NCBI RefSeq assembly: GCF_008000815.1
Contig: NZ_CP042806.1
Span: 372,001 to 436,000, forward strand
DNA length: 64,000 bases
From: Terriglobus albidus
GTDB lineage: Bacteria; Acidobacteriota; Terriglobia; Terriglobales; Acidobacteriaceae
Direction: 5' to 3'
Positions 25,538 through 33,265 of this stretch are shown piece after piece. The position numbers and the translations under genes are program-made. Within the stretch, counting starts at the first letter, position 1, and each line of letters opens with the position of its first letter. The notes below the pieces were generated by a model. The model made no database searches. It had not been told where the DNA came from and was given only the letters and a program-made list of their open reading frames with translations.

Positions 25538-25651
25538 AGAGCATTTTTCCTGTTGCCGGGTATCCAGGGAGAACCGTGCAGCGGCGTTTTCATTGAGGAA
25601 AACGCCCATAGATGCACCGGCCCTGCTCTACACCTACAGGAAAAATGCTCT
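25538..25651 (+). repeat. Palindromic element, full-length copy (114 bp)
   Basis: Ends AGAGCATTTTTCCTG and CAGGAAAAATGCTCT, with an internal GGCGTTTTC-ATTGAG-GAAAACGCC hairpin. It lies 32 bp upstream of the sugar-binding gene start. The 25506-26077 gap contains this copy, a partial copy and a divergent copy, and no gene that I can see. Confidence 0.9.
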
Positions 25652-26077: not shown

Positions 26078-26578
26078 ATGACAACGCTGACATCATCACT
26101 TTCGAAGCGCCGCTGGTTCAAGCTTTTCAGACAGATTCGACATTTCTGCTGCATGCCATGGAAAGAGCAGAGCATGATCGCCGAAGCCTTCCTTCTGCTT
26201 GCCGCAACACGGGCGGCATTGCTTGTTGTCCCGTTTCGTGCGGCGGCAGGGTGGGTTGGAGTCATTGTTCCGCCTAATGCCCCGGGGCTATCGCCGGCCC
26301 AGGGACTTGCAGATGAACAGCGCAGGATTGCGGAGGAAGTGGCAACTGTCGTACGGCGAGCGTCCAGCATGGCGATCTTCGAGTCAACGTGTCTGCCACA
26401 AGCCCTCGCCGCGCGCATCATGCTCAAGCGGAGAGACGTGTCGAGCGTGATTCACTTTGGTGTGCGACGTGGTGAGGAGAAAAAATTGTTGGCACACGCC
26501 TGGCTGGAGGCGGGCGATATGGATGTCACCGGTGGCGCGGTGGCGAGTCAGTATTCTGAGATTGCGCTAGTTATTTGA
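26078..26578 (+). CDS. Lasso peptide B2 protein (transglutaminase-like leader peptidase)
   Basis: 166 aa. Matches the lasso B2/McjB C-terminal family: catalytic Cys in ESTCLPQALAARIMLKRRD (C105), then VIHFGVRRG and the His/Asp part in LLAHAWLEAGDMDV (H140, Asp residues at 147 and 149). It would cut the leader from the lasso precursor delivered by the RRE protein (30326). ATG 26078 is chosen because AGGAGA ends 9 nt upstream; a longer frame from 25979 runs through the palindromic element. It is transcribed opposite to the precursor operon and overlaps the Nif11-like gene tail-to-tail by 8 bp. The N-terminal ~50 residues are hydrophobic/basic, as in other B2 proteins. Confidence 0.88.
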   Translation: MTTLTSSLSKRRWFKLFRQIRHFCCMPWKEQSMIAEAFLLLAATRAALLVVPFRAAAGWVGVIVPPNAPGLSPAQGLADEQRRIAEEVATVVRRASSMAIFESTCLPQALAARIMLKRRDVSSVIHFGVRRGEEKKLLAHAWLEAGDMDVTGGAVASQYSEIALVI

Positions 26579-26795
26579 CGGCCTTACGCCGCTCGGCTTC
26601 ACGGACCAACATCCGCGCGCGAAATGCTTCGGCAATGGAAGCAGCATCCACTTCATAACCGCACGATGCGGCGTAACCAACAAGAGCATCTTCATCGAAA
26701 GCCATCACCTGCGCTGGATCATGAGCACCGGTGATAGATCCTGACCTGAGGCTCGCCAAAAATTGGATCGCATTCTGCACGCGCTTTAGCGTCAT
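26571..26795 (-). CDS. Nif11-like small protein in the lasso cluster
   Basis: 74 aa. The C-terminal half, VMAFDEDALVGYAASCGYEVDAASIAEAFRARML, follows the Nif11 domain pattern (A-x-x-x-GY-x-(V/F)-(T/D)...L-x-x-(A/F)), seen both in nitrogen-fixation accessory proteins and as leader regions of some RiPP precursors. Here no core follows; the protein ends in a basic helix (REAERRKAVK). It starts inside the cyclase-like gene's last codons (overlap ATGA, 26792-26795), so translation is coupled. It could be a carrier, partner or decoy leader for the cluster enzymes; function unknown. Confidence 0.65.
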   Translation of the reverse strand: MTLKRVQNAIQFLASLRSGSITGAHDPAQVMAFDEDALVGYAASCGYEVDAASIAEAFRARMLVREAERRKAVK

Positions 26796-28870
26796 GGTCG
26801 GTTATCCTCTGCGGTTGCCGGTTGTACCCCCAATGCTGTGAGGGCCATCAAAACAGCCGCCGTTGTAAAAATCCGGTAGGGCTCCTCAAGATTGCGGGCA
26901 GTGGCGCCGGTCCTGTCGTCGGTGTCAGTACTCACGATGTCAGTGCCAGATGGCCAGCTACCGTCCTCCAGTTGACGACGGGGTAAGGCTTCGGCGCGAC
27001 GGTGGGCTTCCTGCTGGTCTGACGCATTGCCCAGCCGCAATATTCGTATGATCCAGGCATCGATCCAGGCACTTGGTGCGGATGACCTGTAGGACCAGGC
27101 CCAGAGAATAGCGCGATCGACCGATGCGCGATGCCCAGTCACGGAGGCAAGCGCCTCAGCCGCGAGAGCGGTAGACAATGCAGGACACCGCCACCAGTAG
27201 GCCGTCCAGGAGCCATCATCATTCTGGGTTTCACGGAGCCGTCTCAACGGAAGGCTTCCGAGTAAAGGCGCTACATTCGCCGCCGTACAGAGATGTTCGG
27301 ACTGCCACCCATCGTCATTCTCTTTTGTCGCATGACCGCGGTACTGAACAGATACGCCGGCCTGGTAGGTTGATATTCCGCCATGTGGCAAAAGGTGTGC
27401 GCTTAGAAACTGCATGGCGTGTGCCGATGCCATCCCCTCATAGCCCATCCGTCGGAACAAATGCACTGCCCATGCTGTTGAGTCTGCATCAGGAGGTAGA
27501 CACCTGTTCCAACCCCACCCTCCACCGGCTCGCTGACTGCCCAGCAATTTGTTGACTGCGTCCCCTGCCCCTCTGCGTGCATCGGGATCATTGATGCAAC
27601 CTAGTGCATAACCAACAAAAGCCGTGGCCCATTCGTCACTTGGGCCTAAGTTCGTTCGAAACTCGGTCCACCAACCGCTCTGGTGTTGGCGACTTAATAG
27701 AAATTTGATGGCGGCGTTCACGGTGGCCGACAGGCAGGGCGGACGCGAAGTGGCAATGGCGACGGGATGTTCTGGTGGCGTGTCAGACCAGCAATGTTGA
27801 GCACTGACATACGCTTTCGCCGTCATCTTCCCCTCGGCCGAGAGAGTCACCTTGAGGTGTGACAGTGCGCGCTCTACATACGGGACCGCATCGCCTGACC
27901 GGAGTTCTGTTGCCAGTAACCAACCTAGTGGCCAGGTTTGTTTTGGCATATAGGGATACAACCGGCCTTCAACTTTCAGCAGGCAAGCGGCTTCCGGCTC
28001 AGTGCAGATTCCAAGTTTTTCCAGGAGCACGAATAACTGTTGCCAGCGCGGCTCGGAAGCCGGTTGCTCATCGAACATGATCTCGAAGCCGATATCTTTG
28101 GTCGGACGAAGCTCCATGAAGTTGATGGCAACGGTGACGATGTCCGCTATCTCGACGAGTTCGTCGAATAACTCCAAAGCAGGCGACGCCTCTCCAGGCC
28201 AGGCGATTTCTTCCAGCAGCAGACTGAGCTTTGATTGGCGTACGTTTCTATAGTTGACCCTTAGAAGATCGCCGCGCAGAGGCATGGAGCCGATGTGACT
28301 TATCGAAACATTGTCCGGCATGGTGGGAGCCCAGGGAGGAGCCTCCTGGCTGGCCACGGCGGTTTCCGAAATTTGCCCAGCTGCCATGAGAGCCCGCAGT
28401 TGTCGCATGCGCAGATCATGGAGCGACGGTTCCGGTAAGGCCGGAAACTTGGCATCGACGGGAAGAAAGACCGAGGCCGGCTGATGCAAACGATCAAAAT
28501 CCCATTCGAAGAAGATGGCGCGTGTTGGCTTGGCCTGAGAGTCGTCGCTTTCTCCTGACGCGACAAATTCCTGTAGCTGAGGCGGATACTGAGGCGAAGG
28601 ACGGTTTTGCAGGAACCACGCGAGAGCATCATCGTCGTCGCCGTATGGCTGCACCATCTGGTGCAGATCAGGAGTTTGCGCTCCCGCATTCAATCTGAGT
28701 TCTAGGGCCAGCCTCGGGATAGGCGCAAGCTGCTGAGCGGCGCGACGGATGCTCTCACGCGTCTGATCGTCAAGATGAAACTCGGAAAGTACAGGCCAAA
28801 GAAACTGAAGACATCCCTCGGCGGCTAGAAAGGGACCAGCAACGGTCGTGGAGCTCTTGCTGCCGCTCAT
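26792..28870 (-). CDS. Squalene/terpene-cyclase-like alpha-barrel protein in the lasso cluster
   Basis: 692 aa from the ATG at 28870, which overlaps the kinase stop (ATGA). The first ~370 residues have no motif I recognise. The C-terminal ~310 carry prenyltransferase/squalene-oxidase-type repeats with QW-like motifs: QHQSGWW (395-401), QRAGGGWGW (446-454), QNDDGSW (549-555), QLEDGSW (633-639). DADSTA at 461-466 matches the class II cyclase D-x-D-D-T-A motif except that the last Asp is Ser; the central Asp (proton donor in squalene-hopene cyclase) remains. Such a protein is not a standard lasso enzyme. It may modify the peptide, cyclise a separate terpenoid or merely share the fold. The in-frame extension to 29134 runs antisense to the kinase and is rejected. 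Confidence 0.75.
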   Translation of the reverse strand: MSGSKSSTTVAGPFLAAEGCLQFLWPVLSEFHLDDQTRESIRRAAQQLAPIPRLALELRLNAGAQTPDLHQMVQPYGDDDDALAWFLQNRPSPQYPPQLQEFVASGESDDSQAKPTRAIFFEWDFDRLHQPASVFLPVDAKFPALPEPSLHDLRMRQLRALMAAGQISETAVASQEAPPWAPTMPDNVSISHIGSMPLRGDLLRVNYRNVRQSKLSLLLEEIAWPGEASPALELFDELVEIADIVTVAINFMELRPTKDIGFEIMFDEQPASEPRWQQLFVLLEKLGICTEPEAACLLKVEGRLYPYMPKQTWPLGWLLATELRSGDAVPYVERALSHLKVTLSAEGKMTAKAYVSAQHCWSDTPPEHPVAIATSRPPCLSATVNAAIKFLLSRQHQSGWWTEFRTNLGPSDEWATAFVGYALGCINDPDARRGAGDAVNKLLGSQRAGGGWGWNRCLPPDADSTAWAVHLFRRMGYEGMASAHAMQFLSAHLLPHGGISTYQAGVSVQYRGHATKENDDGWQSEHLCTAANVAPLLGSLPLRRLRETQNDDGSWTAYWWRCPALSTALAAEALASVTGHRASVDRAILWAWSYRSSAPSAWIDAWIIRILRLGNASDQQEAHRRAEALPRRQLEDGSWPSGTDIVSTDTDDRTGATARNLEEPYRIFTTAAVLMALTALGVQPATAEDNRP

Positions 28871-29832
28871 GACTGCTTCGACAGGCAAAGCTGTAAGCTC
28901 TCCGCAAATACCTCTGCCGATTGCCTCAAGAGAGAAAGATTGTCCGGCATCTGCAGTTCCAGGACACTGGCCTGGGAAACCAGATGACTCATCATCCGTC
29001 CGGCAGCAAGAGGTGGGGCATTGGGGGGCAATGGATCGCGGATCAGATGCCTGGCGAGGTGTAGCACGGCACTTTGGCCGGATAGCTTTCGTATTTGCGG
29101 GCTTTCGAGGGATAAACTGCGTGGAAGCAGACAAATCGCAGCCGCAATCCGGAATGAGGAATCTTCCAAATTTTCGTCTTCCGGGATTAGTGCAGGAAGC
29201 AATAGCTTTTCATCCCATTGTTCCTCGAAGTCTCCAGGCAGGGTCTTTGCCCAGCGCTCCTGAGCCGTCTCGGGTGAGTGTCCAAGCGCTTGCAGGCTGT
29301 CGAGACGCAGCTTGTTACGACGCAATCCGGGGAGTGCGCACACTGTGCTTTCGTCACAGCAGATCACCCTCACCAGATCATCAGCAAGAAGAGACCAGCC
29401 TGAACGCTGTAGCGCAGCAGAGAGAGTCGATTTACCCGCTCCCTTAGGACCCATCAAAAGGATGGCCTCGCCGGCTTTTACCAGGGCTGCTGCGTGAAAC
29501 GCAGGGAGGTTCAACCGGCACAAGACCGTGCGCATCACCGGCTCAAGGAGAAGTTCTCTCAAGTTGCTCTGTGCAACAGATGGGAGAGCTGAGGACCGGA
29601 CGACGCGGCCGTCCAATGACACGCGAAACCGGCAGCGAACTTTCCCGCCGGTCCCGAAATCGTGTTGGATCCAGGTTTTGTCCTTTTCAAGGATGGGGCC
29701 GGTAGCCGCGACGTCGACGTCCTGTAGATCAGCCGCCATCGCATCGGACCAGGAATGAAACCAGGATACGTCGGCGTTGGCAGAAAGCGCTGCAGCTTCC
29801 CCTTCGTCAATGCTGAGTCCGTAATGGAACAT
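28867..29832 (-). CDS. HPr-kinase-like (HprK-related) peptide kinase
   Basis: 321 aa. Walker A GPKGAGKST at 128-136, preceded by FHAAALV and followed by LLADDLVRV (149-156), the HprK-type arrangement of P-loop and DD motif. N-terminal ~110 residues are specific to the HprK-related lasso/RiPP family. In paeninodin-type clusters the equivalent kinase phosphorylates the C-terminal Ser of the lasso precursor; the precursor here (29910-30062) ends in Ser, which supports the same role. It is 77 bp downstream of the precursor gene and translationally coupled to the cyclase-like gene. Confidence 0.85.
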   Translation of the reverse strand: MFHYGLSIDEGEAAALSANADVSWFHSWSDAMAADLQDVDVAATGPILEKDKTWIQHDFGTGGKVRCRFRVSLDGRVVRSSALPSVAQSNLRELLLEPVMRTVLCRLNLPAFHAAALVKAGEAILLMGPKGAGKSTLSAALQRSGWSLLADDLVRVICCDESTVCALPGLRRNKLRLDSLQALGHSPETAQERWAKTLPGDFEEQWDEKLLLPALIPEDENLEDSSFRIAAAICLLPRSLSLESPQIRKLSGQSAVLHLARHLIRDPLPPNAPPLAAGRMMSHLVSQASVLELQMPDNLSLLRQSAEVFAESLQLCLSKQS

Positions 29833-29909
29833 TCTCTTGGTAGCAATCGACGCGAAAGGCCATGGGGCAGCGCATGAAGTGTCTGCACCTATGCGAAAGA
29901 GGCGGATGT

Positions 29910-30062
29910 TTAGGAATACGCAGTGGTACCGTCACCGGTAGTGTTGCCGCTGCTACCAGCTTGAGTGATCTCTTCAATCTTGCCGTATTCCACCAGTTCT
30001 GACTCCACAAACTGAGACTGGTTTGCGGTGAGAAGCACCTCTTCCGAGGGTAATTTCTGCAT
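29910..30062 (-). CDS. Lasso peptide precursor
   Basis: 50 aa. AGGAG lies 5 nt before the ATG. The leader carries the lasso signature LVEYGKIEEITQ: a Tyr-Gly-x-Ile recognition segment bound by the RRE protein, and the Thr normally at position -2. The predicted core is AGSSGNTTGDGTTAYS (residues 35-50), with a single acidic residue, Asp44, for the macrolactam. If the core starts at Ala35, as the Thr(-2) rule predicts, the ring would have 10 members. If it starts at Gly36, the ring is the common 9-mer. The C-terminal Ser fits phosphorylation by the HprK-like kinase encoded next. First gene of the minus-strand operon. Confidence 0.85.
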   Translation of the reverse strand: MQKLPSEEVLLTANQSQFVESELVEYGKIEEITQAGSSGNTTGDGTTAYS

Positions 30063-30086
30063 AAATTCTCCTGAAGGTTCGCCGCA

Positions 30087-30116
30087 AGGATACGGTACCT
30101 GTTCGCCAACTGGCAA
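30087..30116 (-). promoter_or_regulatory. Likely promoter of the lasso precursor operon
   Basis: On the minus strand TTGCCA (30116-30111) is followed after 18 nt by TATCCT (30092-30087). This would start transcription about 18 nt before the precursor ATG, leaving just room for its ribosome site. Confidence 0.45.
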
Positions 30117-30182
30117 GAACTTGTTTTCCGTTACATTCGGAGGTTGATGAAGATTCGTATTTAGATTCCGGGAGTCCACTCG

Positions 30183-30296
30183 AGAGCATTTTCCCTGTTG
30201 CTGGGTATCCCGGAAGAGGCGTGCAGCGGGGTTTTCATTGCGGAAAACGCCCATTGGTGTGGAAACCCTACACTACACCTACAGGGAAAATGCTCT
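30183..30296 (+). repeat. Palindromic element, full-length copy (114 bp) in the lasso divergent promoter region
   Basis: Ends AGAGCATTTTCCCTG and CAGGGAAAATGCTCT, with an internal GGGGTTTTC-ATTGCG-GAAAACGCC hairpin. It occupies nearly half of the gap between the divergent precursor and RRE genes and ends 29 bp before the RRE gene start. Confidence 0.92.
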
Positions 30297-30325
30297 ATGG
30301 CATATAACTAACGTGCCGATATGAG

Positions 30326-30619
30326 GTGGGAGTGGACAACGACAAAAATACCTATCACCTGTCCGAGCAGGTTCTAGCCGTTGAGACAAACGGTGAGTAC
30401 GTGTTAATGGATTATGGATCAGGCAAATTCTTCGGGATTCGCGGCGCAGCCCAAATTTTGGTGCAGCCACTACAGACAGGAATGACATTTGATGCCATGG
30501 TGGACCTGGTTCAGCGCCATTACAGGGTTGACGCGGTCCTTGCCGAGACAGATGTGCGGAAGATCCTATCCAGGCTGCTGGATGCGGGGCTGGTTTTAGA
30601 TAGAGGCGCGCCGCAATGA
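30326..30619 (+). CDS. Lasso peptide B1 protein (PqqD-like RiPP recognition element)
   Basis: 97 aa (GTG start; GTG at 30332 is also possible). PqqD/RRE fold: LSEQVLAVETNGEYVLMDYGSGKFFGIRGAAQILVQPLQTGMTFDAMVDLV, then YRVDAVLAETDVRKILSRLLDAGLV, giving the three beta-strands plus winged helical bundle that binds the precursor leader at its Tyr-x-x region. It presents the precursor to the B2 protease and the cyclase. It overlaps the cyclase gene by 4 bp (ATGA) and is divergent from the precursor. Confidence 0.9.
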   Translation: MGVDNDKNTYHLSEQVLAVETNGEYVLMDYGSGKFFGIRGAAQILVQPLQTGMTFDAMVDLVQRHYRVDAVLAETDVRKILSRLLDAGLVLDRGAPQ

Positions 30620-32550
30620 GCGCAATCGCCGGCTTGTGGCACCGCGATGGTGCGCCGGGAGCCAAGGCGCGACTAGGAAATGTGCTGGCCGCGCTCCGTC
30701 ACTACGGTCCTGATGTACGCACACTGTGGGGGGACGGTGCTGTTGCGGTTGGCTGCTGTCTTCGCAAGATCCTGCCGGAAGACGGTATGCAGGCACAGCC
30801 CATCTCGCCTGATGGAGGACGCACAAACGTTGTCGCGGACGTCCGGTTGGACAACCGCTCCGAGATTGCTGAACTCCTTCGTATTACCCCGAATGACGCT
30901 GCAGCGATGAGTGATGCGGCAATCCTGGCTCACGCAGTAGCGCATTGGGGAACCGATTGCTTCCGGTACATTGTTGGGGATTACAGCTTTGCTGCCTGGA
31001 ATTCCCTGGACCAAAGCTGGCTACTCGCCCGCGATGTTGCAGGCGCTCTTCCTTTGTACTTCTATTCCAACGACAAGATCTTTGCATTCGCCTCTATGCC
31101 GATAGGACTCCTCGCATTGGCCGAGGTTCCGGCCGAAGTGAACGAGGAAGGCTTGTTACAGATGCTGGAGAGTGCTCCTCGCGCCTCGGCTGAAGTCACC
31201 GAGTGGAGCGCCTTTCAGCATATCCGCAGAGTTCCGGCCGGCCACTTTATTCGCATCGATAGCCGTGGTGAGAGGACTTTTGAACACTGGAGGCCGCCTG
31301 CTGAGCTCCGGCTGAAGCGTCCGGAGGATTACTACGAAGGGCTGCGAGAACACTTGAATCGTGCCGTCGCCTGCAGGTTGCGTGGAGTTGGAGATGCGGC
31401 ATCCCACCTCAGTGGGGGATTGGACAGTTCTTCCGTAGCCGCCACCGCCGCTCAGTTGCAGGCACAACGCGGAGCCAGCGTCGTTGCGTATACGTCTATC
31501 CCTCAGCGGCACTGTTCCGTAGAACCCCATAACCGCTTCTCCGACGAAAGCGAGCACGCAGCAGCGACGGCAGCACTGTACCCAAACCTTCAGCACGTTC
31601 TGATAACAAGTGAAGGCCGATCCCCCTGGCATTCGTTGGACAGTCATTTTTTGCTGTATCAACAGCCCATGCTGAATCTCTGCAACAGCGCCTGGATTGC
31701 TGCGATTCATAACGATATTGCGCAGAGGAATATCAAAGTTCTCCTCACTGGAAGTATGGGAAACTTCACGATCAGCTACAGGGGACTTGAGATGCTGCCG
31801 GCGTTGATAGCAAGCGGGCAATGGTCCGAACTTTGGCAGTTGACGCGGGCGCTCCACCGGCGTGGTATGTCGAGGAAGTTTCTGTTGGCGAGTTCCTTCG
31901 CTCCCTGGATTCCCAAGGCTCTGCTCATGGCTGCAAAGCGAAGTCCTCCACCCCCTAATCTCTTGCATCCTGACCACAACGAAAAGCGGCGGCGGTTGCC
32001 GCCTGCATCTCCGTTCACCTTTACCGCAGACCATGTCCGTTGGAGAATGTTCCTCTTGCAGCGAACCGACCTGGCTGCAATTCGCAAAGGAACGCTGGCC
32101 GCCTGGGGAGTAGACGAACGTGATCCCACAACGGATCGCCGGCTGCTGGAATTTTGCATGAGCATTCCTGCGGCTGAATGGATGCGAGACGGTTTGCCGT
32201 CTGCGGTGCTTCGGAATGGACTCGCCGATCGTTTACCGGAAAAAGTTCGCTACGAAACACGGAAAGGCATACAGGCGACAGACTGGCACATCGAAGCGGC
32301 CAAGGCTTTGCCTCAACTGCAGGAAGAAATGCGGAAGCTGGAGAAGTCCCCATCCGTAAACGGCATGATCGATATCCCGCGCCTGCGCTCCATGATGGAG
32401 GACTGGCCGAAGGATAACGACTTCGAGAAGATTAGTAGCTACCGATACACATTTCTTCGGGCGCTTTCAGTCGGTAGATTTCTCCGTGATGCGGAGAGCT
32501 GCAAGACCGCGATCAACGTGATTGCGAGCCAGGAGCCTGCGATTCCATAA
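30616..32550 (+). CDS. Lasso cyclase (asparagine synthetase B-like, McjC type)
   Basis: 644 aa. N-terminal Ntn-like domain begins MSAIAGLWHRDG: residue 2 is Ser, not the Cys2 needed for glutamine hydrolysis, as expected for lasso cyclases that use a peptide amine. NVVADVRLDNRSEIAELL and YIVGDYSFAAWNSLDQSWLLARDVAGALPLYF are the usual AsnB features. The PP-loop SGGLDSSS at 266-273 binds ATP to adenylate the Asp/Glu side chain, after which the new N-terminus closes the macrolactam. It forms an operon with the RRE gene. Its 3' end is followed by the tRNA-Phe-fragment array. Confidence 0.93.
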   Translation: MSAIAGLWHRDGAPGAKARLGNVLAALRHYGPDVRTLWGDGAVAVGCCLRKILPEDGMQAQPISPDGGRTNVVADVRLDNRSEIAELLRITPNDAAAMSDAAILAHAVAHWGTDCFRYIVGDYSFAAWNSLDQSWLLARDVAGALPLYFYSNDKIFAFASMPIGLLALAEVPAEVNEEGLLQMLESAPRASAEVTEWSAFQHIRRVPAGHFIRIDSRGERTFEHWRPPAELRLKRPEDYYEGLREHLNRAVACRLRGVGDAASHLSGGLDSSSVAATAAQLQAQRGASVVAYTSIPQRHCSVEPHNRFSDESEHAAATAALYPNLQHVLITSEGRSPWHSLDSHFLLYQQPMLNLCNSAWIAAIHNDIAQRNIKVLLTGSMGNFTISYRGLEMLPALIASGQWSELWQLTRALHRRGMSRKFLLASSFAPWIPKALLMAAKRSPPPPNLLHPDHNEKRRRLPPASPFTFTADHVRWRMFLLQRTDLAAIRKGTLAAWGVDERDPTTDRRLLEFCMSIPAAEWMRDGLPSAVLRNGLADRLPEKVRYETRKGIQATDWHIEAAKALPQLQEEMRKLEKSPSVNGMIDIPRLRSMMEDWPKDNDFEKISSYRYTFLRALSVGRFLRDAESCKTAINVIASQEPAIP

Positions 32551-32555
32551 AACGG

Positions 32556-33190
32556 GATACGTCGCTACACTCCTAAGAGCACGGCCGAAGTATCTGTATT
32601 TTCAACGGGATGGTGGCCAGGGACGGGATCGAACCGCCGACGGCTGGGCCTTGTTCATGGCCGCGTGCAAACATACGGCGCTACGCGCCTGAGAGCGCGG
32701 CCGAAACTACTGTGTTTTCATCGGGATGGTGGCCAGGGACGGGATCGAACCGCCGACGGCTGGGCCTTGTTCATGGCCGCGTGCAAACATACGGCGCTAC
32801 GCGCCTGAGAGCGCGGCCGAAATTACTGTGTTTTCATCGGGATGGTGGCCAGGGACGGGATCGAACCGCCGACGGCTGGGCCTTGTTCATGGCCGCGTGC
32901 AAACATACGGCGCTACGCGCCTGAGAGCGCGGCCGAAACTACTGTGTTTTCATCGGGATGGTGGCCAGGGACGGGATCGAACCGCCGACGGCTGGGCCTT
33001 GTTCATGGCCGCGTGCAAACATACGGCGCTACGCGCCTGGGAGCGCGGCCGAAACTACTGTGTTTTCATCGGGATGGTGGCCAGGGACGGGATCGAACCG
33101 CCGACGGCTGGGCCTTGTTCATGGCCGCGTGCAAACATACAGCGCTACGCGCCTGAGAGCGCGGCCGAAACTACTGTGTTTTCATCGGGA
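32556..33190 (-). repeat. Tandem array of 116-bp units carrying tRNA-Phe 3' fragments
   Basis: Five units start at 32611, 32727, 32843, 32959 and 33075 with an exact 116-bp period, and a sixth start (33191) is the intact tRNA-Phe; a partial spacer at 32556-32610 closes the array. In tRNA orientation each unit holds the tRNA-Phe 3' part including T-arm GGTTCGATCC, acceptor CCTGGCC and CCA, with a damaged anticodon arm (GGCC-ATGAACAA-GGCC) and no 5' half. The remainder is a spacer with a GGCGC-GTA-GCGCC hairpin. Units are almost identical, so amplification is recent or homogenised. No gene is supported in this 812-bp stretch between the lasso cyclase and adenosine deaminase genes apart from the tRNA. 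Confidence 0.9.
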
Positions 33191-33265
33191 TGGTGGCCAG
33201 GGACGGGATCGAACCGCCGACGCCGGCCTTTTCAGGGCCGCGCTCTACCACTGAGCTACCTGGCC
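33191..33265 (-). tRNA. tRNA-Phe (anticodon GAA)
   Basis: 75 nt with encoded CCA. Acceptor GGCCAGG/CCTGGCC, D-arm GCTC-AGTGGTA-GAGC, anticodon arm CGGCC-CTGAAAA-GGCCG (anticodon GAA) and T-loop GTTCGATCC are all intact. The downstream side carries five truncated copies of its 3' half. Confidence 0.95.

Follow-up and report, generated by a model that had tools for sequence, protein, structure and literature searches.

We analyzed a 64,000-nucleotide stretch of the genome of the soil bacterium Terriglobus albidus (Acidobacteriota, family Acidobacteriaceae; contig NZ_CP042806.1, positions 372,001 to 436,000 of a single-contig genome of 6.4 Mb). This whole stretch is called the window below, and coordinates refer to it unless another locus is named. 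It contains a complete lasso-peptide cluster, made up of a precursor, a recognition element (RRE) of the RiPP (ribosomally synthesized and post-translationally modified peptide) type, a protease, a cyclase and an HprK-like kinase, together with two further genes, one for a 692-aa protein and one for a Nif11-like protein of 74 aa. The description that fits best is that of a lasso cluster equipped with a prenyltransferase-cyclase of the NctPC kind and with a Nif11 leader that has become detached. It is likely that the lasso peptide is prenylated, probably on the single Tyr of its core, that the attached chain is then cyclized and that the coreless Nif11 leader serves the enzyme in trans, where we infer the prenyl transfer, the Tyr, the order of the steps and the role in trans.

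The 692-aa protein is composed of two unrelated halves. A preliminary description of the window had called the protein squalene-cyclase-like, which is appropriate for residues ~374-692 but not for the N-terminal half, as the latter belongs to a separate family. Pfam and NCBIfam gave only weak squalene-hopene cyclase matches. When residues 362-692 were compared with the PDB using phmmer, MstE (7.6e-30) and the prenylcyclase 6ij1 (2.5e-29) came out far ahead of the monodomain squalene-hopene cyclase 8pak (5.6e-14); the MstE alignment covers residues ~380-642 of the protein. Plain squalene-hopene cyclase activity was rejected in view of the MstE match and of a TIGR01507 score of 26 bits against a cut-off of 431. 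MstE acts on geranylgeranylated dihydroxybenzoate, which it cyclizes through protonation of the double bond at the end of the chain (PMC9401909). As this substrate is an aromatic compound that has already been geranylgeranylated, domains of this type should act on a chain that is already attached to an aromatic group. Judging from the sequence, we propose that the C-terminal half cyclizes an isoprenoid chain.

Prenyl transfer was assigned to the N-terminal half because the published enzyme NctPC (Hubrich et al. 2024, Chem 10:3224) consists of a prenyltransferase and an MstE-like cyclase. NctPC geranylgeranylates a Trp of a ribosomal peptide and then cyclizes the chain (PMC13290415). By analogy, we infer that the N-terminal half is a prenyltransferase. 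The conserved charged and aromatic residues of its family are E, D, R, R, E, H-x-K and K-x-Y. The domain is rare (3 of 300 genomes), and its relatives are found on cyanobacterial and Azospirillum plasmids and in about a dozen loci in Acidobacteriota genomes. When genome contigs were queried with the 692-aa protein or its two-row alignment, no relatives were confirmed, and viral contigs yielded none.

In nearly all the loci found, the N-domain family sits in RiPP clusters with LanM, YcaO, LanB-type proteins or NHLP/Nif11 precursors (Table 1). The N domain and an MstE-like cyclase come together in several independent ways: they are fused in the window and in another species of the genus (genome G007), and they are encoded by neighboring genes in loci L024, L121, L032, L063 and L120. 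Trp is present in the core peptides of 11 of the 13 related loci, where 4.5 would be expected at a Trp frequency of 1.4% (P about 3e-5), a figure that is indicative since the cores were picked by hand. In L120 (10457-11764, minus strand) an NHLP leader domain (residues 8-66, 2.3e-13) is naturally fused to an MstE-like cyclase (121-427, 1.2e-38). L024 (2315-4839) appears to be a minimal three-gene system of an NHLP peptide ending in ...DPEGWRPF, a prenyltransferase and a cyclase. L020 (7619-15000) comprises a coreless NHLP leader, a prenyltransferase, an amine-oxidase/cyclase fusion, a methyltransferase-like gene and two P450-like genes, with no evident core peptide.

The connection between the two additional genes and the lasso peptide was examined with the help of a second cluster. 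The lasso cluster of G007 (locus L008) has its genes in another order and likewise encodes this fusion, overlapped by 4 bp by a Nif11-like gene, with B2, RRE, C, precursor and kinase genes alongside. The two fusions are 33% identical (E = 9.6e-69), and their prenyltransferase halves are 25% identical. In a tree of 16 N domains, the two lasso-linked ones form a clade (support 95/91) nested in a group (93/94) whose other members, those of G246, G291 and G417b, mostly occur with Nif11-type precursors. Because the pair recurs in this rearranged cluster and the two fusions form a supported clade, the two genes are not bystanders, and that reading was rejected. The preliminary description had suggested an extra modification, or the use of a different carrier, as the role of these nonstandard genes, and that their random occurrence beside unrelated genes would speak against this. 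The recurrence of the pair and the RiPP surroundings of the N-domain family are in agreement with its suggestion, and the added modification would be prenylation followed by terpene cyclization. Within the family, lasso B2 genes occur widely (44 of 150 genomes). L069 and L076, the nearest lasso clusters as judged by their C protein, display the same B2(+)/kinase(-)/C(+) frame and lack both extra genes, as if the pair had been inserted between B2 and the kinase.

The identification of the 74-aa protein as Nif11-like, also made in the preliminary description, is weak if taken alone. Its top hit, TIGR03798 (E = 0.072, 13.4 bits), does not reach the curated cut-off of 32.3. The assignment is strengthened by the G007 counterpart, which has the same top hit (E = 0.048, below the cut-off), and by a single hhalign comparison of the Nif11-like proteins with cyanobacterial Nif11 leaders (Prob 72, E = 3.3e-5). 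The AlphaFold2 model is compact and all-helical, with a predicted local distance difference test (pLDDT) score of 84; a Foldseek search of the PDB with this model found nothing. The open reading frame (ORF) stops after the last helix and contains no linker, GG site or core, and the two lasso-linked copies have strongly diverged from each other. MppC, a lanthipeptide prenyltransferase, depends on its Nif11 leader, of which both the structured nucleus and the linker are needed (PMC12715784); modelling of MppC has an aromatic residue dock in a hydrophobic groove of the leader. A detached leader is also in keeping with L020, where a coreless NHLP leader adjoins the prenyltransferase, and with the leader-cyclase fusion in L120. 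We propose that the Nif11-like protein was retained because the enzyme family evolved docking on Nif11/NHLP leaders; most simply, the docking partner stayed with the enzyme once a lasso peptide had become the substrate.

In the core of the window precursor, the single aromatic residue is a Tyr one residue away from the C-terminus, and the last residue is Ser. The ends of the window core (...TTAYS) and the G007 core (...SSYTS) each contain one Tyr as the sole aromatic and a C-terminal Ser. As both cores have exactly one aromatic residue, and it is a Tyr near the C-terminus, this Tyr is the likeliest prenyl acceptor, and a core Ser is a likely phosphorylation site. We also applied the usual lasso precursor rule, which calls for Thr at position -2 and Asp/Glu at core position 7-9. 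A Thr at -2 places the ring Asp at position 10, and a Thr at -3 places it at position 9, the offset being the same in the window precursor and in that of G007 (L008 5669-5797). Whichever Thr is taken, the leader/core offset of both precursors departs from the rule. Leaders in Acidobacteriaceae frequently deviate at -2 (PMC10368454). A 10-residue ring was considered as a possibility, as the sequence does not fix the cleavage site.

In the mechanism that we propose, a module of the RiPP prenyltransferase-terpene cyclase type would have entered a kinase-containing (paeninodin-type) lasso cluster. The N-terminal half of the 692-aa protein would move a C15 or C20 isoprenoid from its diphosphate onto the lasso precursor, most likely onto the core Tyr, and the MstE-like half would protonate the end of the attached chain and cyclize it. 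The Nif11-like protein would represent the structured part of a Nif11 leader after the loss of its linker and core and would provide a docking surface in trans, with the RRE handling the lasso leader. B2 and C would then form the lasso, and the kinase may phosphorylate a core Ser/Thr, perhaps the C-terminal Ser. More tentatively, this could be a pathway to a lasso peptide-terpenoid hybrid. Its prenyltransferase-cyclase, at first guided by a Nif11 leader joined to the substrate, would have been transferred to a lasso peptide by the release of that leader, and the coreless protein so formed would activate the enzyme in trans. L020 and L120 might then follow the same principle of leader domains turned enzyme subunits.

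Several observations weigh against this mechanism. Neither profiles nor models connected the N-terminal domain with the barrel (ABBA) fold of known prenyltransferases: it had no match in Pfam, NCBIfam or the PDB and none in a profile comparison with NphB, and its AlphaFold2 model, which was run without an alignment, was uninformative (pLDDT 37). The Nif11 match of the window protein is below its cut-off, as described above, and the two lasso clusters found with the fusion and Nif11-like module are both from one genus. Characterized members of the enzyme family use Trp as the acceptor, and Trp is present in neither lasso core (window or G007). Furthermore, prenylation by MppC is abolished by a Trp-to-Tyr mutation (PMC12715784), so that a Tyr acceptor would demand a changed specificity. 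Finally, the MppC leader is inactive in trans (PMC12715784).

The last of these points would also suit an explanation that we regard as unlikely, in which the prenyltransferase-cyclase acts on the lasso peptide and the Nif11-like protein is left over from an ancestral Nif11 precursor and no longer has a function. The missing GG site and core and the divergence of the two copies are what one would expect of such a relic. However, its ORF is intact and linked to the prenyltransferase-cyclase gene by an ATGA overlap in both clusters, its predicted fold is confidently compact and helical, and L020 and L120 offer further cases of leaders that are coreless or fused to an enzyme. The acceptor could also be a Ser/Thr or a terminus of the core instead of the Tyr. 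The cores are indeed rich in Ser/Thr, but the conservation of a single aromatic near the C-terminus of two otherwise different cores makes this possibility similarly doubtful.

Another explanation is that the prenyltransferase-cyclase and the Nif11-like protein modify a small molecule or some other peptide and are merely co-localized with the lasso genes. The absence of Trp from both lasso cores is consistent with it, as is the L020 homologue, which has a coreless leader, an amine-oxidase/cyclase fusion and P450-like genes but no obvious core peptide. We nevertheless consider it improbable, since the pair is kept in both lasso clusters despite their different gene order, and is translationally coupled to the lasso kinase in the window, and since no further precursor was apparent in the ORF list of either cluster. 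It is also quite improbable that, in place of a prenyltransferase, the N-terminal half forms a scaffold or binds leaders and so hands peptides to swapped catalytic domains, namely the terpene cyclase here and a 2-oxoglutarate (2OG) oxygenase in Pseudanabaena. Its fusion to different catalytic domains and its lack of sequence match to known prenyltransferases would be explained in this way. On the other hand, the domain stands alone in many loci, the charged and aromatic residues that it conserves would fit a catalytic barrel that uses a diphosphate, and MstE-like cyclases require a prenylated substrate, with NctPC having its prenyltransferase at the same position.

The remainder of the cluster is of the paeninodin type, with a kinase containing the H, the P-loop GxxGxGKS and the DD, and a core that ends in a Ser (AYS). 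The P-loop GPKGAGKS and the DD can be read in the kinase sequence, as can the complete H/G/G/G/K/S/DD pattern, which is conserved in lasso-peptide kinases (PMC10368454). The lasso cyclase carries the motif SGGLDSSS, in agreement with the SGGxDSS loop, and AGGAGA stands ahead of the ATG of B2. The gene list and coordinates of the preliminary description held throughout, each gene being at or very near its place, and the B2 gene is indeed at the far left and convergent, overlapping the Nif11-like gene by 8 bp. Of the 4-bp ATGA couplings that it proposed for the minus-strand unit, those between the kinase and 692-aa genes (28867-28870) and between the 692-aa and Nif11-like genes (26792-26795) are present, but the precursor and kinase genes are 77 bp apart. 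The RRE and cyclase genes share an overlap of the same kind (30616-30619).

Table 1. Features of the lasso-peptide cluster in the window and loci that carry relatives of the N-terminal domain
Feature	Position or locus	Strand	Evidence and context
Lasso peptidase B2, transglutaminase-like, 166 aa	26078-26578	+	NF033537 81.5 bits, cut-off 33; Transglut_core3 7.9e-23
Nif11-like protein, 74 aa, proposed stand-alone leader (structured nucleus)	26571-26795	-	TIGR03798 top hit
Proposed bifunctional prenyltransferase-terpene cyclase, 692 aa	26792-28870	-	Prenyltransferase-domain profile, residues 13-369, 1.6e-112; cyclase profile, residues 374-692, 6.7e-137; both profiles contain this protein itself
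C-terminal domain, residues 374-692, MstE-like class II terpene cyclase	26795-27751	-	phmmer against the PDB
DADST, putative acid-catalysis motif, residues 461-465	27476-27490	-	Aligns with DADTT of MstE; DxD(S/T)T kept
N-terminal domain, residues 1-372, proposed RiPP prenyltransferase-like family	27755-28870	-	Alignment A3, 16 invariant positions; homologues in RiPP clusters
HprK-like lasso-peptide kinase, 321 aa	28867-29832	-	TIGR04352 5.4e-12, below curated cut-off
Lasso precursor, 50 aa	29910-30062	-	C-terminal part ...EYGKIEEITQ/AGSSGNTTGDGTTAYS; lasso leader models NF033528 and NF033521 match weakly
Promoter-like site 5' of the precursor	30087-30116	-	TTGCCA-18-TATCCT, matched to the consensus only; the region has 4 such sites, with 3.5 expected by chance
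RRE, PqqD-like, B1	30326-30619	+	PF05402 4.8e-10, above cut-off; NF033530 1.1e-12, below curated cut-off
Lasso cyclase C, asparagine-synthetase-like, 644 aa	30616-32550	+	NF033535 5.1e-90, below curated cut-off; PF00733 8.5e-29, above cut-off
N-domain relative, Nostoc	L004		LanM, radical SAM enzyme, NHLP/Nif11 precursors
N-domain relative, Acaryochloris	L005		Nif11 precursor, RiPP radical SAM enzyme
N domain fused to 2OG oxygenase, Pseudanabaena	L006		LanM, Nif11 precursors
N-domain relatives	L021, L023		Adjoining LanM-like proteins (named by eye)
N domain at the C-terminus of a longer protein	L025		Separate cyclase gene
N-domain relative	L026		LanB C-terminal-like protein
N-domain relative	L028		NHLP precursors
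Prenyltransferase and cyclase-like protein	L032 9814-17911		LanM-like protein; four NHLP precursors, all with C-terminal Trp
Prenyltransferase/cyclase cluster	L063 635-9080		Several NHLP precursors, five with C-terminal Trp
N-domain relative	L120		YcaO, neighboring gene for the NHLP leader-cyclase fusion, precursor ending in CCCW; the prenyltransferase stands alone
N-domain relative	L121		Adjacent cyclase

A second lasso locus of the same genome, L097 (G000:C1:5102000-5114500), has B2, RRE and kinase genes and is without the prenyltransferase-cyclase. In four other lasso clusters of the family (L065, L073, L083 and L085), B2 is contained in a long ORF of 555-623 aa, which suggests its fusion to another domain. 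The segment from B2 to the precursor is flanked by two copies of a palindromic element of ~115 bp with the ends AGAGCATTTTYCCTGT (25538-25651 and 30183-30296), the second of which separates the precursor gene from the divergent RRE gene. The genome has at least 42 scored copies (327 candidates) of the element, which resembles those of the repetitive extragenic palindromic (REP) and miniature inverted-repeat transposable element (MITE) kinds. A tandem array of 5.9 copies of a 116-bp unit (32557-33265) runs into the tRNA-Phe(GAA) gene (33191-33265, minus strand), and the repeat unit includes tRNA-derived sequence.

Only very recently have ribosomal peptides of other RiPP classes been found to undergo prenylation with subsequent polycyclization. 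If our interpretation is true, the window cluster would put a rigid lipophilic group on a knotted scaffold that resists proteases, and the module would be able to move between RiPP classes (lanthipeptide, azole, proteusin and lasso). Furthermore, if the Nif11-like protein acts in trans, it would be a natural case of leader recognition split from the substrate, which RiPP engineers have sought.

Compared by description, NctPC resembles the 692-aa protein in having a peptide prenyltransferase domain (a proposed one in the window protein) at the N-terminus and an MstE-like cyclase domain, and in belonging to a RiPP cluster; relatives of the window N domain sit in LanM/Nif11/NHLP clusters. On the same basis, the window enzyme differs in its lasso cluster, in a core Tyr instead of Trp, and in a Nif11 leader that is a separate coreless protein. 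MppC, likewise compared by description, is a soluble prenyltransferase that depends on a Nif11 leader nucleus, and relatives of the window N domain are encoded beside Nif11 precursors and LanM; however, MppC has a single domain and acts on the Trp of a leader-attached lanthipeptide (PMC12715784). MstE (PDB 6sbb family) and the prenylcyclase 6ij1 are, like the C-terminal half of the window protein, class II terpene cyclases of the single-domain type with the same DxD(S/T)T motif, but MstE cyclizes a small prenylated aromatic acid, whereas the window domain is fused to a domain proposed to modify peptides. With paeninodin-type clusters the window cluster shares the precursor, RRE, B2, C, the HprK-like kinase and the C-terminal Ser of the core, and it differs from them by its two extra genes. 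In L069 and L076 an ABC transporter gene adjoins the cyclase gene, whereas none adjoins it in the window. Known systems that prenylate lasso peptides have the same type of target, and the sources consulted on them mention neither a terpene cyclase domain nor a Nif11 partner. In the open-access literature, to which the search was confined (subscription papers lay outside it), no lasso cluster containing a terpene cyclase was found to be described. The preliminary description regarded the cluster as the best candidate in the window for an undescribed system. By its architecture, the enzyme type does have a published relative, NctPC (PMC13290415); what is new is its placement in a lasso cluster and its coreless Nif11 partner.

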